From: Sulfurimonas sp. HSL3-7
GTDB lineage: Bacteria > Campylobacterota > Campylobacteria > Campylobacterales > Sulfurimonadaceae
Reading direction: 5' to 3'
NCBI RefSeq assembly: GCF_039645985.1
Contig: NZ_CP147919.1
Location: 1,054,001 to 1,118,000 of the forward strand
Length of the DNA: 64,000 bases
The translations under genes and the position numbers were made by a program. The notes below the pieces were generated by a model, which saw only the letters and a program-made list of their open reading frames with translations, had not been told where the DNA came from and did not search any database. This document shows, piece by piece, positions 40,450 through 49,236 of the stretch (positions are counted from its first letter, which is position 1; each line of letters begins with the position of its first letter).

Positions 40450-40865
40450 TGCTGCTCCTTGCATTCCCTGGCGTAGCCGTAGATGACCTTCAAGAAGGCC
40501 TCCAGCCCCTGCTGGCGCACGGGGCTCAGCAGCTCCATAATACCCATCTCCTTGAGCTCGTTGGGGTCGAAGGAAAGGATCTCGTCGGGGGTGCGGTCGT
40601 TGAAGATGCCCAGCAGCATCACCAGCATCCCCTTGGCAATGATGGAGTCGCCCTCGGCTTCAAGGTGTATCTTTTCGCCGTCAAAGCTCTTGTGGAGCCA
40701 GGCGAGCGAGGAACACCCTTTGATGATGTTCTCGTCGCACTTGAACTCCTGATCGATCGTCGGTGCATCGTGGCCGAAGTCGAGGATGTACTCCATCTTG
40801 GCGTTGTTGTCTTCAAAAAGGTCGAGGTCGGCTTTGTAGGCTTTTACCTGTTCTGACATGGTCAT
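40446..40865 (-). CDS. sufE: SufE, sulfur acceptor for Fe-S assembly
   Basis: Takes persulfide sulfur from the cysteine desulfurase SufS and passes it to SufBCD. The 139 residues include the acceptor cysteine in IIKGCSSLAWLHKS, the GCxS site of the family, and ILSFDPNELKEMGIMELLSPVRQQGLEAFLKVI. The start overlaps the end of sufD by 4 bases. No sufS lies in the operon, so the desulfurase (possibly NifS/IscS) must be elsewhere. Confidence 0.92.
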   Translation of the reverse strand: MTMSEQVKAYKADLDLFEDNNAKMEYILDFGHDAPTIDQEFKCDENIIKGCSSLAWLHKSFDGEKIHLEAEGDSIIAKGMLVMLLGIFNDRTPDEILSFDPNELKEMGIMELLSPVRQQGLEAFLKVIYGYARECKEQQ

Positions 40866-42048
40866 GATATCTCCTTTTGGTAGTAGGCGGATTCAAACGC
40901 ACTTCGGATCGCCTCCGCCGCTTTTTCGTCTTCTACCTCTTCGATCATCTCGTTGGCAAAGGCTAGGATCAGCATCTTGCGCGCCTCCTCGAGGCCGATG
41001 CCGCGCGAACGGAGATAGAAGAGGGCCGCCTCGTCGAGCTGGCCGGTGGTGGCGCCGTGCGAGGCTTCGAGCTCGTCGGTGTAGATCTCCAGCTGCGGCT
41101 TGGCCTCCATAAAAGCGTTATCGTTAAGCAGGATCGCTTTGGAGTTCTGCCTTGCAGCGGCGTAACGGGCCCCGTGGCCGACACGGATGCGCCCGTCAAA
41201 GATGCCGGCGGCGTTCTCTTTGAGGATCGATTTCGCCAGATGCACGCTTTTGGCGGAAATGCCGTTATGGCGCAGGTTGACGACATTGCCGCGGTGCGCT
41301 CTGCCCGATGCAAAGAGGAGGTGGGAGAGCATCGCAACGGTATGGTCTGAGAGGTCGTTCTTGTAGAGGTGCAGGGCGATGCCGCTGCCGAAGTCGAAGG
41401 TCTGCAGCGTCATTTCGGCCCGGGAGCCGACGTCGTAGCGGTGCGAACCGATCACCGCGGCATCGTTCTCCCCGGCGCTCTGGTTGCGGATCCAGGTCAG
41501 TGCACCCGCTTCGCCGACATGCACGTCCAGACCGTAGAGCAGCAGCGAGCCGCCGCTGCCGGCGTTCTCGAAGCTCTCGTATACCGTTGCCCGGCACTCC
41601 GGTGCGGTCCTGATGACGATGCGGCAGGGGATGAGGGTGTTCTGCCTCTCGAGACGGTGCACGATGGTAAGGTCGATGTCGTTTTCGATGCTCAGGACGA
41701 TGCAGTGCGGCGAGAGGAGGTGGGAGAGGTGGTAAAGCGCGTCGAAATGCGTTATGTCGGGTTCAAACCCTGTCTGGAACGAGACATTGACATCTTCCGG
41801 TACGGCGGTGACGACGCCGTCTCTGATCTCGAGGATCTTCTCTTTGAGAGGCGGTTTCGGCTGCTCAGGCGCGGCCAGGGTATAGTCGTCGGCCAGCAGC
41901 GGCTTGACGGAAAAATGACGGTACTGTTCGGTCTTGTTGCCGGGAATGCCGAGCTCCAAAAAGCGTTTGGCTACGGCCTCCTTGCTGCTGTCAAAATCGA
42001 GACAGCTGCGCAGTCCGGCCAGACTCTGTCCGCTTAGTTCCGAGGGTC

Positions 42049-42052
<4 letters not shown>
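40862..42052 (-). CDS. sufD: SufD, Fe-S scaffold subunit
   Basis: A 396-residue beta-helix protein, partner of SufB and SufC. Typical segments are HRGNVVNLRHNGISAKSVHLAKSILKENAAGIFDGRIRVG and LEIYTDELEASHGATTGQLDEAALFYLRSRGIGLEEARKML, with the His of SHGATTG conserved. It overlaps sufC and sufE by 4 bases each. Confidence 0.93.
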
Positions 42053-42791
<739 letters not shown>

Positions 42792-42795
<4 letters not shown>

Positions 42796-44225
42796 CCTAC
42801 ACTTCCTTCCAGGGTTAGATTGAGCAGCTCTTTGGCTTCAACCGCAAACTCCATCGGCAGCTGGCTGAAGACCTCCTTGCAGAAGCCGTGGACGATCATG
42901 GAGACGGCGTCCTCCTCCCCGATGGCGCGGCTTCGCAGGTAGAAGAGCTGTTCGTCGCTGATCTTCGAGGTGGTCGCCTCGTGCTCGATGACGGCACTCG
43001 CGTTGCGGGACTCGAGGTAGGGGAAGGTGTGTGCCCCGCACTCCGGTCCTATCAGCAGGCTGTCGCACTGGCTGAAGTTGCGTGCCCCTTCGGCCTTGGC
43101 ACCGACCTTGACGAGCCCGCGGTAGCTGTTTTGGCCGTGCATCGCGGAGATCCCTTTCGAGATGATCGTCGAGCGGGTGTTCCTGCCGACATGGATCATC
43201 TTGGTCCCCGTGTCGGCCTGCTGCGCCAGCGTCGTGATCGCGACGGAGTAGAACTCGCCGACCGAGTTGTCTCCCCGTAAGATGCAGCTCGGGTACTTCC
43301 AGGTGATGGAAGAGCCGGTCTCGACCTGCGTCCATGAGATCTTGGAGTTCTCGCCTTCGCAGAGACCTCTCTTGGTGACGAAGTTGAAGATGCCCCCTTC
43401 GCCGTTCTCGTCGCCGGGGTACCAGTTCTGTATCGTCGAGTACTTGATCTCGGCGTCTTTCTTGGCGATCAGCTCGACCACCGCGGCGTGGAGCTGGTTC
43501 TCGTCGCGCTGCGGAGCGGAGCACCCCTCGTTGTAGGAGACGTAGCTCCCCTCCTCGGCGATGATGAGGGTGCGCTCGAACTGCCCGGTGTTCTGCGCGT
43601 TGATGCGGAAATAGGTCGAGAGCTCCATCGGGCAGCGCACCCCTTTGGGGACATAGACGAAGGTGCCGTCGGTAAAGACGGCGGCGTTGAGCGCGGCGAA
43701 GAAGTTGTCGCTCATGGGGACGACGGAGAAGAGGTACTCCTGCACCAGTTCGGAATGGTCGCGGATGGCCTCGGAGATGGAACAGAAGATAATGCCGAGT
43801 TCGTGCAGCGTCTCGGAGTAGGTGGTCTTGACCGAGACGGAGTCGAAGACCGCGTCGACGGCGATCCCCTGAAGCATCTTCTGCTCTTCGAGGGGGATGC
43901 CGAGCTTGTCGTAGGCCTCGAGGATGTTCGGATCGACCTCGTCGAGCGAGTTCGGGGCCTTCTTGGGCGCGGCGAAGTAGGAGATGGACTGGTAGTCGAT
44001 GGGCTTGTAGTGCAGATGCGCCCATTGCGGCTCCTCCATCTTCTGCCACCGGTGCAGCGCCTTGATGCGCAGCTCGGTCATCCAAAGCGGTTCCTTCTTC
44101 TTGGCGGAGATAAAGCGGATGACCTCGTCATTGAGACCTGGCGCGACGGTGTCCTCTTCGACATCGACGGTAAAGCCGAGCTTGTACTCCTGTGAAACAA
44201 GCTGGTCAACATCTTTCTGTGCCAT
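42792..44225 (-). CDS. sufB: SufB, Fe-S scaffold core subunit
   Basis: The main scaffold for nascent Fe-S clusters, 477 residues, with [59 protein letters not shown] and [40 protein letters not shown] signatures. It is the first gene of sufBCDE-sufT; a TTTTTC-rich leader and AT-rich gap lie upstream. No IscR/SufR-like gene is adjacent. Confidence 0.95.
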
Positions 44226-44531: not shown

Positions 44532-45413
44532 TTAATCTGTTATTGTGATATCGAGACCAATTGATGAACGATAGCCTATATCCTTATCTGGAAGGCAAGA
44601 GATAGGGGTAACAGCATGCCATAAATCAGTATTTTTATCAGGTTGAAAGATTCCCTGGCCTGCCTGCAACGTAACCTCAAAAAGCTCAGTCTTGGCATCT
44701 TTCTCATATATGAAACTTTTTCCACCTTGTATACCATTTCTTTCAATTACTAAAGCTGAGACGATATAGTCCATTCCATCCTGGTGGATACCTTCCGGTG
44801 AATTTGTTCCATCAATGCCCTGAAAACAATAGATCACGGTATGGTGAAGTGCAACATTGAGTGAAGTAGGATGTGAAGATAGATTTATTCTCAAATCATC
44901 AGCAACTGCATTTAGCAGCACATGCCAACAGTTATATTCTAGTGATTTGGGAAGTTCTTTGAAAATACGTCTTGCCAGTCTATAGTCATGAGCATTTTCA
45001 AGACTTATCAAAGCATCATCCTGACCAAAAGGTTTGGCTGGTACACGAGAAATTTCCCATGAATTTTGAGAGTATTTCAAGTCAAACTCTGATACCAGCC
45101 GTTTTCTGGTAGGTCTGATTTTTGAAAATTTTTCAAATTGCAGTCGGGATAAGTTTTGTAAAACAGGTTCAAGTTCAGAGTCCGAAATAATTTCATTGTA
45201 ATAATGTTCCCAAAATTCTTCAGGGATCTGATTTAAAATATTATTTGATAAATTATTTTTTAAGAATTCAATTTTATTTTGTCTAAGCAGATAATTATCC
45301 CATTCATACTCAGTCTCATACGCTGGCCTTAACTTTTCAGCAATTTCCTTAACATCTATCCCGTACTCTTCCAGATTAATTAGTTTTATTGGTTTTTCAA
45401 GTTGGTAAAACAT
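44532..45413 (-). CDS. 2OG-Fe(II) dioxygenase, free-amino-acid hydroxylase type
   Basis: A 293-residue oxygenase resembling the 2OG-Fe dioxygenase family (PF10014 type) that includes isoleucine and leucine hydroxylases. The metal triad is His210 and Asp212 (EGIHQDGMDY) with His266 (DLWHAVTP); Arg282 (GYRSSIGL) should bind 2-oxoglutarate. The frame runs on to 45602, but the ATG at 45413 has a GGAGG ribosome site and avoids overlap with the next gene. The coding DNA is clearly AT-richer than flanking genes, a sign of transfer. Substrate unknown: a free amino acid or a residue in a peptide. Confidence 0.82.
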   Translation of the reverse strand: MFYQLEKPIKLINLEEYGIDVKEIAEKLRPAYETEYEWDNYLLRQNKIEFLKNNLSNNILNQIPEEFWEHYYNEIISDSELEPVLQNLSRLQFEKFSKIRPTRKRLVSEFDLKYSQNSWEISRVPAKPFGQDDALISLENAHDYRLARRIFKELPKSLEYNCWHVLLNAVADDLRINLSSHPTSLNVALHHTVIYCFQGIDGTNSPEGIHQDGMDYIVSALVIERNGIQGGKSFIYEKDAKTELFEVTLQAGQGIFQPDKNTDLWHAVTPISCLPDKDIGYRSSIGLDITITD

Positions 45414-45529
45414 TTCGCATCCTCCAGACTTATAAAAATACAATTTGATTTTCAGATCCGCGATTTTTGCGACATACAGCTGTGGTCTATTTGGCTGGCT
45501 GTTTGTCTTAGCAGCGCCTCCTTTGGGTT

Positions 45530-46009
45530 TTACTCTTTCTCCGCCCATTCGCGAAGTTTGCGTTTGAGTTTTTTCTCCACCTTGTCGCTTATCTCGTCCC
45601 ACTCTTTGACGACATCCGCGTCATCTTCGTCTTCGGCCCACTCTTTGAGCCTCCGCATGATCTTCTGTTCGACCTTCTCGCCTATCTCCTCCCACTCTTT
45701 GTCGCGCTTTCTGTTCGCGGCAGAACGGCACGAGACGTGCGAACTGCCGCCCCAGACGATGATGACGCCCAGCAGGAAACCGAAGTCATACCAGCTGCCC
45801 GTATTGTGTACCTCGTAGACAGTGACGTTGTCATTGAAGAGATGGATGATGAGCGTAATAAACGCGATCATCCCGTGCCAGAGCCCGTACCAGAACCCGG
45901 CCGGCTCCCCCTGTGTGAACTGTGCGTCACCGGCGGTGCATGCCGTAAAGAGGAAGATCAGGGGGAACAAGAGCACTGTTTTATATAGTCGGGGGTTTTG
46001 CGGTGTCAT
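45530..46009 (-). CDS. Membrane lipoprotein with two amphipathic C-terminal repeats
   Basis: A 159-residue protein. The ATG at 46009 has an AAGGAG ribosome site; the longer frame to 46060 lacks one. A lipobox-like LFTAC ends the signal. Two hydrophobic segments follow (GFWYGLWHGMIAFITLIIHLF and YDFGFLLGVIIVWGG). The tail holds two charged repeats of about 26 residues, KEWEEIGEKVEQKIMRRLKEWAE and KEWDEISDKVEKKLKRKLREWAE, likely coiled coil. Similar GLWHG/YDFGFLLG membrane proteins are common but unnamed. Function unknown. Confidence 0.75.
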   Translation of the reverse strand: MTPQNPRLYKTVLLFPLIFLFTACTAGDAQFTQGEPAGFWYGLWHGMIAFITLIIHLFNDNVTVYEVHNTGSWYDFGFLLGVIIVWGGSSHVSCRSAANRKRDKEWEEIGEKVEQKIMRRLKEWAEDEDDADVVKEWDEISDKVEKKLKRKLREWAEKE

Positions 46010-46181
46010 GGGAACTCCTTGTTGCCTGATAATTATATTCAGTGTTACCGAGGTCACCAACCAAATAGCGATGTAATTATCAGATTAAGTAATAATATAA
46101 CGTATTTGGCATTGTCAGTCAACCGCACAATCTAAGAGCAATAAAAGAGTGAAGAGCTATGTTTTTGTAGCTTTTTAATAG

Positions 46182-46227: not shown

Positions 46228-47334
46228 TTAGAGGGGTGCGATTGCGCCCACATAGGTGCGGACCGTATCGTAGAAACGGCGATGGTCGTCGCACATGATC
46301 GATTTACGCGTAAAATCGAGGGCAGTGCCGCCAAGACGGTTGGCGATAAACCCGCCGCCGCAAAGCTCGCTGTGGGTACATGCGGCGCACTCTTCGGGCA
46401 ATACGGCGTGCAGGTCGCGGCACTGCTTGATGATAGGATCTTCTGCTGCCGACTCAATGCTGTGCTCGAAAACATTAAAGTCGGTCCGTACGGCACCGTC
46501 TGTAAAATAGCGCAGGTAGTCGTGACGCTCATACTGCCCGTCGCTGTCAACAACGAGACTGCTGAGACGGTCGCCGCCAACGCCGTCGCCGTGGTGTGCG
46601 CTGCCGAGAAGGAGTTTGATGGCATCGCGAAAGATGCGGATACGAATGGTCGGATCGTCTGCTTCGCTCCAGAGACGGAAAAGTTCGGCATACCATGCGC
46701 CGTAGTCACGCTGCGGCGGGTTGTCATGGTTGTAGTGGATCGGCCAGAGGATGCTCACCTCTTTTTTGGGAAGGGTCTTGATCCAGTCAAGGTAGGCCTC
46801 GGGCGCGATGCCGGGGTCTGCGACACTGAGCACCCCGCCGAAGTAGGGCAGAAGGCCGTCTGCTTCGAGCAGCTGCAGGTTTTCGAAGACCTGTCTGTAG
46901 CTTCCCTCACCGCTATGGGTAATGCGTCGGACATCGTTATAGGGCTGCGGTCCGTCCAGACTGACGCCGATAGAACCGCCGGCGTCTACAACGCGGTGCA
47001 AAAGTGCCGCGTCGTAGCTGTAGAGGTTCGTCTGCAGTCCGATACTCAGACGCTTGCCGGTACGTTGGCGCAGTTCTTTTAAGGCCTTTAAAAAAGGGGT
47101 CATAGAGCTCTCGGGCCAAAGGGTCGGCTCACCGCCGTGCAGCACAAGCCGCAGGGAGGCATCTTGACGAGCCTGCAGGTACTCCTCGATCCGGGTGAGT
47201 ATCTGAAGGCCCGTCTCCAAATGCATGAATTTCGGCACACGCGTATGCGTTTTATCTTCGGAGTTGAACATATAACAGTAGCTGCAGTCAAGGTTGCAGG
47301 TCTCGGTCAGTTTGAGTATTAACGAAGCAATCAT
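46228..47334 (-). CDS. Radical SAM/SPASM enzyme, probable RiPP maturase
   Basis: A 368-residue enzyme. The radical SAM cluster ligands are Cys13, Cys17 and Cys20 (CNLDCSYC), followed by LVLHGGEPTLW and IGVSLDGPQPYND. A C-terminal SPASM domain holds auxiliary-cluster cysteines: near 303 (KQCRD), ECAACTHSELCGGG near 312-322, and CDD near 348. This layout matches peptide-modifying enzymes of the FxsB/XyeB/cyclophane or sulfatase-maturase types. A short peptide gene lies immediately upstream and no sulfatase is present, favouring a RiPP maturase. The ATG at 47334 is chosen over an upstream TTG because GGGAG lies nine bases before it. Confidence 0.85.
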   Translation of the reverse strand: MIASLILKLTETCNLDCSYCYMFNSEDKTHTRVPKFMHLETGLQILTRIEEYLQARQDASLRLVLHGGEPTLWPESSMTPFLKALKELRQRTGKRLSIGLQTNLYSYDAALLHRVVDAGGSIGVSLDGPQPYNDVRRITHSGEGSYRQVFENLQLLEADGLLPYFGGVLSVADPGIAPEAYLDWIKTLPKKEVSILWPIHYNHDNPPQRDYGAWYAELFRLWSEADDPTIRIRIFRDAIKLLLGSAHHGDGVGGDRLSSLVVDSDGQYERHDYLRYFTDGAVRTDFNVFEHSIESAAEDPIIKQCRDLHAVLPEECAACTHSELCGGGFIANRLGGTALDFTRKSIMCDDHRRFYDTVRTYVGAIAPL

Positions 47335-47382
47335 TTTTGGGAGCTCCCGCAGCCTCTGCAAGGGTGCGGAAGTGTCAATTGA

Positions 47383-47574
47383 TTAGGCGTTTGCAATCAG
47401 CTCGACTTGCACGTCCAAACCTGCGTCAATATCCAGGTCAAACGGGTTGAGGCCATCCATATTTGCCGATTTCAGTTCAGCAACGATGTTTTTCATAATC
47501 TTTTTCTGCATTGTTTCAGCGCTGAGGGAACCCTCCGGAAGACCTTCGATTTTGACTTGTACCTTTTGAGACAT
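47383..47574 (-). CDS. Candidate RiPP precursor peptide
   Basis: A 63-residue peptide encoded 48 bases upstream of the radical SAM enzyme on the same strand. The N-terminal half is lysine-rich and likely helical (EGLPEGSLSAETMQKKIMKNIVAELKSA), fitting a leader. The C-terminal half is acidic with one aromatic residue, Phe45, in GLNPFDLDIDAGLDVQ. It has no cysteine, tyrosine, tryptophan or double-glycine cleavage site. I recognise no named precursor family. Size, position and lack of homology to housekeeping proteins suggest it is the enzyme's substrate, but this is inference. Confidence 0.65.
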   Translation of the reverse strand: MSQKVQVKIEGLPEGSLSAETMQKKIMKNIVAELKSANMDGLNPFDLDIDAGLDVQVELIANA

Positions 47575-47809: not shown

Positions 47810-48211
47810 TCAGACCCTCTTTTTGAGAGAGCCTTTAAGCTGCATCATTGCCTGATGCTCGAGCAGATAGATCAGGGTCTCCTGAACATAGTAGCGGATC
47901 GCATCACGCGTTGCTCTGTCCAGACTATTCACCTTCTGCGTACGAAGGGTTTTGCCTTTGCCATAAAGCAGCCCGAAACGATCATCAATGAAACGCCCCC
48001 GAAACCAGCCGATCAATACCGCATCCTCCTTGACCCGGATGGAACAGAACCCGCCCTCTCTGGAAAAAAAAGAGGTGCTGTTTTCACGATGCTTCTCTTT
48101 GACACCGTTGCCGATAGAGATCTTAATATAGTCTCTCAGTGCCAAAAACAGTTCCGACTGCCCGCTTTGGGCGTCACGTTCAAAGGCGGTCGTCCTCTTT
48201 CCTATTGCCAT
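47810..48211 (-). CDS. DUF1801-like protein
   Basis: A 133-residue protein with ENSTSFFSREGGFCSIRVKEDAVLIGWFRG and FGLLYGKGKTLRTQKVNSLDRATRDAIRYYVQETL, resembling the DUF1801 (YdhG) alpha/beta fold. Function unknown. The ATG at 48211 overlaps the stop of the AMMECR1 fusion gene (ATGGCAATAG), so the two are coupled; the longer frame to 48253 would overlap more. Confidence 0.72.
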   Translation of the reverse strand: MAIGKRTTAFERDAQSGQSELFLALRDYIKISIGNGVKEKHRENSTSFFSREGGFCSIRVKEDAVLIGWFRGRFIDDRFGLLYGKGKTLRTQKVNSLDRATRDAIRYYVQETLIYLLEHQAMMQLKGSLKKRV

Positions 48212-49236
48212 GCGGCAGGATCGGGCGAGGCGTGGTGCATGAGCAGGCGCCACCCGCCGTCCGTCAGCTGGTAGACATTGGTGGCGATGGCGATCACGGC
48301 CGGCTCGCCGTTGATGATAATGCGTTCGCGCAGGGTGTGGATGCTGAGCTGGTCGTCTTTTACAAAGTGCACATCCTCAAGCTCAAACTGCATGGCAGGC
48401 TCTCCCGCAAACATTTCGCGCCAGCTCTGGGCAACCGCGTCGCGTCCCTGCAGGCGCTCGCCGACGGGGTGGATGCAGACGACGGCCTCATCATCGGCCC
48501 ACACCGCCAGCATCGCATCCAGGTCGCCGCGCTCCAGCGCGTTGTAGAACCCGATCTCGGCGTCCTGCGGGGTGGAAAAGCGCGCGGCTGCAGATGCGCC
48601 TTCGTCCCCGGCCGGCGTTGTATTCTCTTCTTCATGGGGTGTGTCCTCTTTTGCCAGGGGTGTATATGCATCTTCAAGGGGTGTGTCCTCGAAACGTTCG
48701 GCCTCGTAGGTGTAGATCTTGGGATGTCCGTCTAGCGCGGATGTCCTGACCCCGGCTTTGACGCCGAGTTGGGAAAAAAAGTAGTCAAAATCGGGGAACT
48801 CTTCCCATACCTGGGGGAGGAAGGTTGCGACGTGTTTTTCCTGCTGCAGGATGACCCCGTCGATTCCGGGCCGGATCTTGTTTCGCAGATCCTCCGTGTC
48901 GCTGTAAGAGAGCTCTCTCGGCAGGCCCAGGATTGATATCTCTATGCTGCAGTAGGGGTATTCCCCTTCGCTCAGCGGGTAAAAACGGGTGTCGCTGAAG
49001 GCCGCGGCTTTGGCATTATGGATAACGTCATCAAAAAGCGTGGTACGCGGCAGAAGAGAGCCTATACAGCCGCGCAGCGAATCGCCGTCTATGTTGATCG
49101 TAACGAAGGAGGCGCCCTTTTGCGCCAGCTCCGGGAACTGATGCAAAAGTATCTCTTTTGAATAGGGGAACGGTTTACCGAACTGTTCCTCGATCGAAGC
49201 GCGGGCGAGCTTGAGTAATATGTCTTGCAGTGTCAT
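48202..49236 (-). CDS. AMMECR1 domain fused to an NTF2/SnoaL-like domain
   Basis: A 344-residue fusion. Residues 1-180 form an AMMECR1 domain: GASFVTINIDGDSLRGCIGSLLP, NAKAAAFSDTRFYPLSEGEYPYCSIEISILG and IRPGIDGVILQQEKHVATFLPQVWEE. Residues 182-220 form an acidic Thr-Pro-rich linker. Residues 224-344 are an NTF2-like/SnoaL domain (YNALERGDLDAMLAVWADDEAVVCIHPVGERLQGRDAVAQSW, DGGWRLLMHHASPDP). Bacterial AMMECR1 often occurs with Memo and a radical SAM partner; neither partner is adjacent. An AAAGGAA ribosome site precedes the ATG. Confidence 0.85.
   Translation of the reverse strand: MTLQDILLKLARASIEEQFGKPFPYSKEILLHQFPELAQKGASFVTINIDGDSLRGCIGSLLPRTTLFDDVIHNAKAAAFSDTRFYPLSEGEYPYCSIEISILGLPRELSYSDTEDLRNKIRPGIDGVILQQEKHVATFLPQVWEEFPDFDYFFSQLGVKAGVRTSALDGHPKIYTYEAERFEDTPLEDAYTPLAKEDTPHEEENTTPAGDEGASAAARFSTPQDAEIGFYNALERGDLDAMLAVWADDEAVVCIHPVGERLQGRDAVAQSWREMFAGEPAMQFELEDVHFVKDDQLSIHTLRERIIINGEPAVIAIATNVYQLTDGGWRLLMHHASPDPAAWQ

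Follow-up and report, generated by a model that had tools for sequence, protein, structure and literature searches.

Two adjacent genes of Sulfurimonas sp. HSL3-7 very probably encode a RiPP precursor and its maturase. Our preferred reading, to which we give a probability of roughly 0.58, is a minimal two-gene RiPP of the triceptide type, in which a radical SAM enzyme would link Phe45 and Leu47 of a 63-residue peptide in a cyclophane. The genes lie in a window (the whole stretch of DNA analyzed) of 64,000 nucleotides on contig NZ_CP147919.1, positions 1,054,001 to 1,118,000. The pair falls in no named precursor or enzyme family and is triceptide-like in its predicted working.

Genes of the pair

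The features of the locus are as follows (window coordinates).

47383..47574, minus strand: precursor peptide gene, 63 aa, ATG start, sequence MSQKVQVKIEGLPEGSLSAETMQKKIMKNIVAELKSANMDGLNPFDLDIDAGLDVQVELIANA
47434..47442, minus strand: codons of Phe45-Asp46-Leu47, the proposed three-residue cyclophane site (Phe ring to C-beta of Leu47, a prediction); sole aromatic, invariant in five genomes, with aromatic-X-Leu recurrent in clade precursors
47335..47382, minus strand: 48-base spacer from precursor to enzyme with a G+C-rich hairpin (fold -18.5 kcal/mol, z -2.6)
46228..47334, minus strand: radical SAM/SPASM peptide maturase, 368 aa, a proposed three-residue cyclophane synthase (NCBIfam, ChlB structure match, its own 100/100 clade)

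Both frames and the 48-base gap are as described in a sequence-only reading of this DNA, which had proposed a peptide gene followed by a radical SAM enzyme with CxxxCxxC and SPASM cysteines. The conserved start of the enzyme is the ATG at 47334 (MIASLILKLTETCNLDCSYC), matching the ATG at which its relatives start; the listed 377-aa open reading frame begins at an upstream TTG. The CxxxCxxC motif is Cys13/17/20, and the SPASM domain is a shortened one with four cysteines (316, 319, 325, and 348), the same four as in all aligned FxsB/HaaB/YhhB relatives. An extra cysteine, Cys305, occurs in the alignment only in the five enzymes of this bacterial family.

A residue count bears out that Phe45 is the only aromatic residue of the peptide, which contains no Cys, Trp, Tyr, His, or Arg. 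The peptide matched no family in NCBIfam, Pfam, or PHROGs, in keeping with the earlier statement that it could not be placed in a named family. Its PDB matches were to unrelated or designed proteins (E 0.004 or worse) and were rejected. Modeled alone, the peptide is predicted at low confidence to form a strand-helix-strand.

Placement of the enzyme

The enzyme reaches the curated cut-off of no named NCBIfam subfamily. The best models are YhhB (NF041707, 242 bits vs a cut-off of 445) and FxsB (TIGR04269, 219 vs 370); XyeB scores 129 bits (cut-off 450), and all three models are named as cyclophane-forming. No epimerase model of the PoyD/YydG type is among the best 25 NCBIfam matches listed. By sequence, the closest solved structure proved to be that of the ChlB radical SAM domain (9gm3, E 1e-39), ahead of a sulfatase maturase (E 1e-10). 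In a Foldseek search with the predicted enzyme model (barrel fair, SPASM part poor with a mean pLDDT of 58), ChlB again came first (E 2e-17) and anSME structures second. The ChlB crystal structure contains the leader of its precursor; PMC12636437, which cites the ChlB work, calls ChlB a multiple cyclophane synthase and gives the HExxH partner as an Asp and His hydroxylase. Matches of the enzyme to viperins in PADLOC were attributed to general radical SAM similarity.

A scan of genome contigs recovered three more relatives at 40-44% identity, in Oxalobacteraceae OM1 (locus L016), Rhodospirillales 70-18 (L017), and Polaromonas JS666 (L018). A maximum-likelihood tree was built from the window enzyme, its four near relatives (below), these three, HaaB, YhhB, FxsB, and other plasmid relatives. 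The window enzyme, the four near relatives, and L016-L018 form one clade with support 100/100, and everything else falls outside it. Taken together, profiles, structure, and tree place the enzyme among the three-residue cyclophane synthases of the FxsB/YhhB/ChlB type, as a separate clade. The earlier label of an unclassified RiPP stands in that no named precursor or enzyme family takes in the pair, and is narrowed by this placement among cyclophane synthases.

The clade has eight members in the scans made and is rare. Several hundred genomes of Burkholderiaceae and other Proteobacteria (classes and near relatives of the L016-L018 hosts) held no new members; this wider search gave two enzymes at 31-33% identity, one of which is accompanied by a YhhA-like precursor. 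So scattered a distribution points to horizontal transfer. A phage or plasmid origin was considered and rejected: the best enzyme matches reach only about 31% in phages (over short stretches) and about 31% in plasmids, viral contigs likewise lack a close enzyme, and the peptide has no match in plasmids.

Comparison with known systems

Judged by curated or motif definitions, the pair lies outside YhhAB, FxsAB, HaaAB, and ChlAB. It resembles YhhA/YhhB/YhhC, the top curated model, in that the gene for a small precursor immediately precedes that of a radical SAM enzyme whose SPASM is truncated. The window enzyme is, however, only about 27-30% identical to annotated YhhB proteins, the peptide lacks YDR, HHR, or HNR (that is, a Tyr/His-X-Arg near the C-terminus), and no YhhC lies beside the pair. 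FxsA/FxsB and HaaA/HaaB (TIGR04269 family) share the enzyme architecture and the single precursor, and FxS systems use a Phe donor; the window peptide has neither FxS near its C-terminus nor HAA, and the locus lacks HaaT/HaaN or an HExxH partner. ChlA/ChlB (a fused radical SAM and aKG-HExxH protein, PDB 9gm3/9gmc), the nearest in both sequence and fold, makes cyclophanes but is about 27% identical, and the window has no HExxH domain or gene and a precursor with a single aromatic. The TvgABC cyclopropylglycine system likewise combines a radical SAM enzyme with a small peptide, but has a repeat TVGG peptide and transporters that are absent from the window locus (PMC11002830, PMC9062424). Sactipeptides and ranthipeptides carry Cys in the precursor core, whereas this peptide has none, so the earlier doubt about thioether chemistry holds. 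As in triceptides, the precursor adjoins a radical SAM/SPASM maturase, and the enzyme is related to cyclophane synthases.

Several plasmids hold other pairs of this general kind. Those of Calothrix (L035, 3556-5149) and Spirosoma (L039, 2594-6506) encode unnamed pairs of a small peptide and an FxsB-like radical SAM enzyme; the Spirosoma pair has a peptidase-containing ABC transporter alongside. On a Rhizobium lusitanum plasmid (L040, 1721-5276), the gene for a protein of 380 residues containing numerous MHDQTHSE repeats precedes radical SAM and HExxH genes, making this locus a candidate multi-core cyclophane RiPP.

Conservation of the pair

The enzyme occurs at 72-74% identity in only four other genomes among 100 relatives and 397 genomes drawn from the phylum, all four belonging to a single other genus of this bacterial family. 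A search of 200 relatives with the peptide matched the same four genomes, with no further convincing match and none where the enzyme is absent. The pair is thereby found together in five genomes of two genera, and in each of the four others the peptide gene lies 40-46 bases ahead of the enzyme gene.

Compared with the window copies, the peptides of the other four genomes are 82-89% identical, against 72-74% for the enzymes. The five peptides have in common MSQKVQ, GLPEG, SAETMQKKI, KNIVAE, and the entire block SANMDGLNPFDLDIDAGLDV. For the peptide, dN is about 0.08-0.11 and dS about 1.2-1.5, giving a dN/dS of about 0.05-0.09, an approximate ratio because dS is near saturation; the enzyme has a dN of about 0.2 across the same genomes. 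Conservation in five genomes, dN far below dS, and the higher dN of the enzyme mark the peptide as a real gene that is under purifying selection and more tightly constrained than the enzyme. Since the peptide adjoins the enzyme in four further genomes at these substitution rates, the pairing is not due to chance. The sequence-only reading had proposed a precursor and radical SAM pair that would fall if the 63-residue frame were not conserved in related genomes; the co-conservation in five genomes supports the proposal.

Precursors of the clade

In L016 and L018 a small peptide ending in GFNPAAIS(V/I)VFGLKW is encoded directly upstream of the enzyme, and an aKG-HExxH peptide hydroxylase (TIGR04267, 89 and 97 bits) directly downstream. 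The L017 peptide holds GINLGTANAALSWGLDFTLHIS, and no HExxH partner was seen at that locus. Over 38 residues (I...A.L..A...G.NP......GL), the window peptide can be aligned with those of L016 and L018 at shuffle p values of 0.002 and 0.001, vs only 0.02 for the L017 peptide; it is homologous to the L016 and L018 precursors. These two loci share the enzyme clade and a homologous precursor with the window, and differ from it in the FGLKW end of the peptide and in the hydroxylase gene, which was found neither in the window genome nor in its four relatives.

Every precursor type of the clade contains an aromatic-X-Leu triplet: FDL in the window, FGL in L016 and L018, and both WGL and FTL in L017. 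Multiplied together, the three shuffle probabilities give about 0.001, for a motif picked after looking. Precursors outside the clade have other motifs, YDR/HHR/HNR in YhhA and FNS at a Nocardia FxsB locus. Pairwise alignment puts the L016 and L018 FGL on Ala51-Gly52-Leu53 of the window peptide, not on Phe45-Asp46-Leu47, so the triplet is not positionally homologous and would have moved. Within the window peptide, Phe45-Asp46-Leu47 also fits an aromatic-X-X3 core motif and is invariant in five genomes, a weak test in that any internal aromatic yields such a triplet.

Proposed chemistry

In a three-residue cyclophane, the synthase has bonded an aromatic ring to the beta-carbon two residues further on (i+2). 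As Phe45 is the sole aromatic, a three-residue cyclophane would be limited to Phe45 and Leu47, and with Cys also missing this is the likeliest product. We infer that the peptide is the substrate, and from there predict a crosslink, the residues it joins, and what becomes of the product. The enzyme would recognize the leader of the precursor (the N-terminal strand and helix, about residues 1-40), generate a 5'-deoxyadenosyl radical from SAM, and take a beta-hydrogen from Leu47. The C-beta of Leu47 would then be bonded to the Phe45 ring, giving a Phe-Asp-Leu cyclophane with a mass change of -2 Da. Cleavage of the precursor would probably fall to a peptidase that the host encodes at another locus, or the precursor may act as a modified small protein.

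Among the cyclophane pairs given in PMC11002830, Trp is joined to Arg, Asn, or Asp; Phe to Asn or Ser; Tyr to Asp or Arg; and His to Ala or Arg. Phe is thus a known donor, and Leu is not among the acceptors given there (Asn, Arg, Asp, Ser, and Ala). The Ala acceptors indicate that a polar side chain is unnecessary, which makes Leu chemically reasonable.

The strongest competitor, possible but a good deal less probable, is that the pair makes a RiPP with a different modification: a change at the beta-carbon of Asp or Asn, an aliphatic cyclopropane as made by TvgB, a crosslink at Ala51-Gly52-Leu53, or epimerization. Asp and Leu, and not Phe alone, are prominent in the invariant block, the clade is distinct from the characterized enzyme families sampled, the FGL of the relatives aligns with an AGL that has no aromatic, and TvgB, a radical SAM enzyme of related type, makes cyclopropylglycine (PMC9062424, PMC11002830). 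Against this, the nearest curated and solved enzymes form C-C cyclophanes, and an aromatic-X-Leu triplet is kept in every clade precursor. Epimerization and Asp beta-carbon modification had been named earlier beside a Phe-Asp-Leu crosslink; they are retained as alternatives and now rank behind the cyclophane because the enzyme is placed with the FxsB/YhhB/ChlB synthases, and the crosslink is supported as a candidate.

It is unlikely that the peptide is a small partner or an unrelated protein and that the enzyme acts on something else. Such a role would fit the very high conservation and the predicted fold of the peptide (at low confidence), and the missing protease and exporter. The peptide nevertheless sits where a precursor would in every genome that has a close enzyme, is homologous to the peptides in that position in L016 and L018, and is paired with an enzyme whose nearest structure, ChlB, acts on a peptide and was solved with the leader.

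Spacer and neighboring genes

A hairpin of different sequence occupies the same spacer in two of the other genomes (L019 and L020, z about -2); the other two (L021 and L022) have a stem that is not better than shuffles. The hairpin may be an attenuator or an mRNA-stability element that tunes the ratio of precursor to enzyme.

In the window, neither the open reading frame list nor profile searches of the nearest six genes showed a transporter, peptidase, or sulfatase next to the pair, in agreement with the earlier account. In the other genus, genes resembling D-Ala-D-Ala dipeptidase and cytochrome c lie upstream of the pair and, in at least two genomes, a PEBP-like gene lies downstream (all named by reading the sequences); none of these neighbors is common to the window.

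One further gene lies on the same strand:

44532-45416, minus strand: PF10014 2OG-Fe dioxygenase gene, matched by Pfam only with no NCBIfam match, 0.8 kb downstream of the enzyme gene

PF10014 corresponds to InterPro entry IPR018724, to which TvgC, a 2OG enzyme, belongs. The preferred cyclophane could in principle be followed by an added step in which this oxygenase hydroxylates the crosslinked peptide, and 2OG oxygenases are known in such clusters (YhhC; TvgC, PMC11002830). We regard this step as quite improbable. The gene is AT-rich (about 33-37% G+C vs about 58% for the enzyme gene), sits between higher-G+C genes, and is separated from the enzyme gene by a lipoprotein-like gene. A search of 59 relatives, two pair-bearing genomes among them, did not find it, and it was not seen around the pair in any of the four other genomes. 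It is probably a separate, recent-looking acquisition. Its identification as YhhC was rejected, as it matches PF10014 alone and an annotated YhhC matches other Pfam models.

The intervening gene (45530-46060, minus strand) has no family above cut-off, and the C-terminus of its product carries two copies of a charged KEW-E/D-EI...KVE-KI/KL..LKEWAE repeat. On the other side of the pair, 48202-49236 (minus strand) encodes an AMMECR1/AmmeMemoRadiSam protein A domain with a C-terminal SnoaL-like domain, a fusion that looks unusual. Genes read as SufD, SufC, and SufB, for Fe-S cluster assembly, lie about 2 kb downstream (40862-44225, minus strand), probably by coincidence.

That the enzyme is an anaerobic sulfatase maturase is hardly credible: the two belong to the same broad family and anSME structures come second in the fold search, but the enzyme scores 113 of the 349 bits required by TIGR03942, its SPASM is truncated, its peptide partner is conserved, and no sulfatase was seen alongside in the loci read, an association named earlier as evidence against a RiPP.

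Implications

Our literature search returned no study of three-residue cyclophanes in this phylum. If the preferred cyclophane is correct, the pair would extend the three-residue cyclophanes by a new family of precursors and by Leu as a new acceptor. The single aromatic of the peptide makes the position of the crosslink accessible with one or two mutants. More speculatively, the enzymes may form a new cyclophane synthase clade that uses an unactivated Leu acceptor and a stand-alone conserved precursor with neither exporter nor protease, in a housekeeping or cofactor-like role and not as an antibiotic. With its slower evolution relative to the enzyme and no adjacent exporter or immunity gene, the precursor is unlike a bacteriocin, and its physiological role is a testable question.
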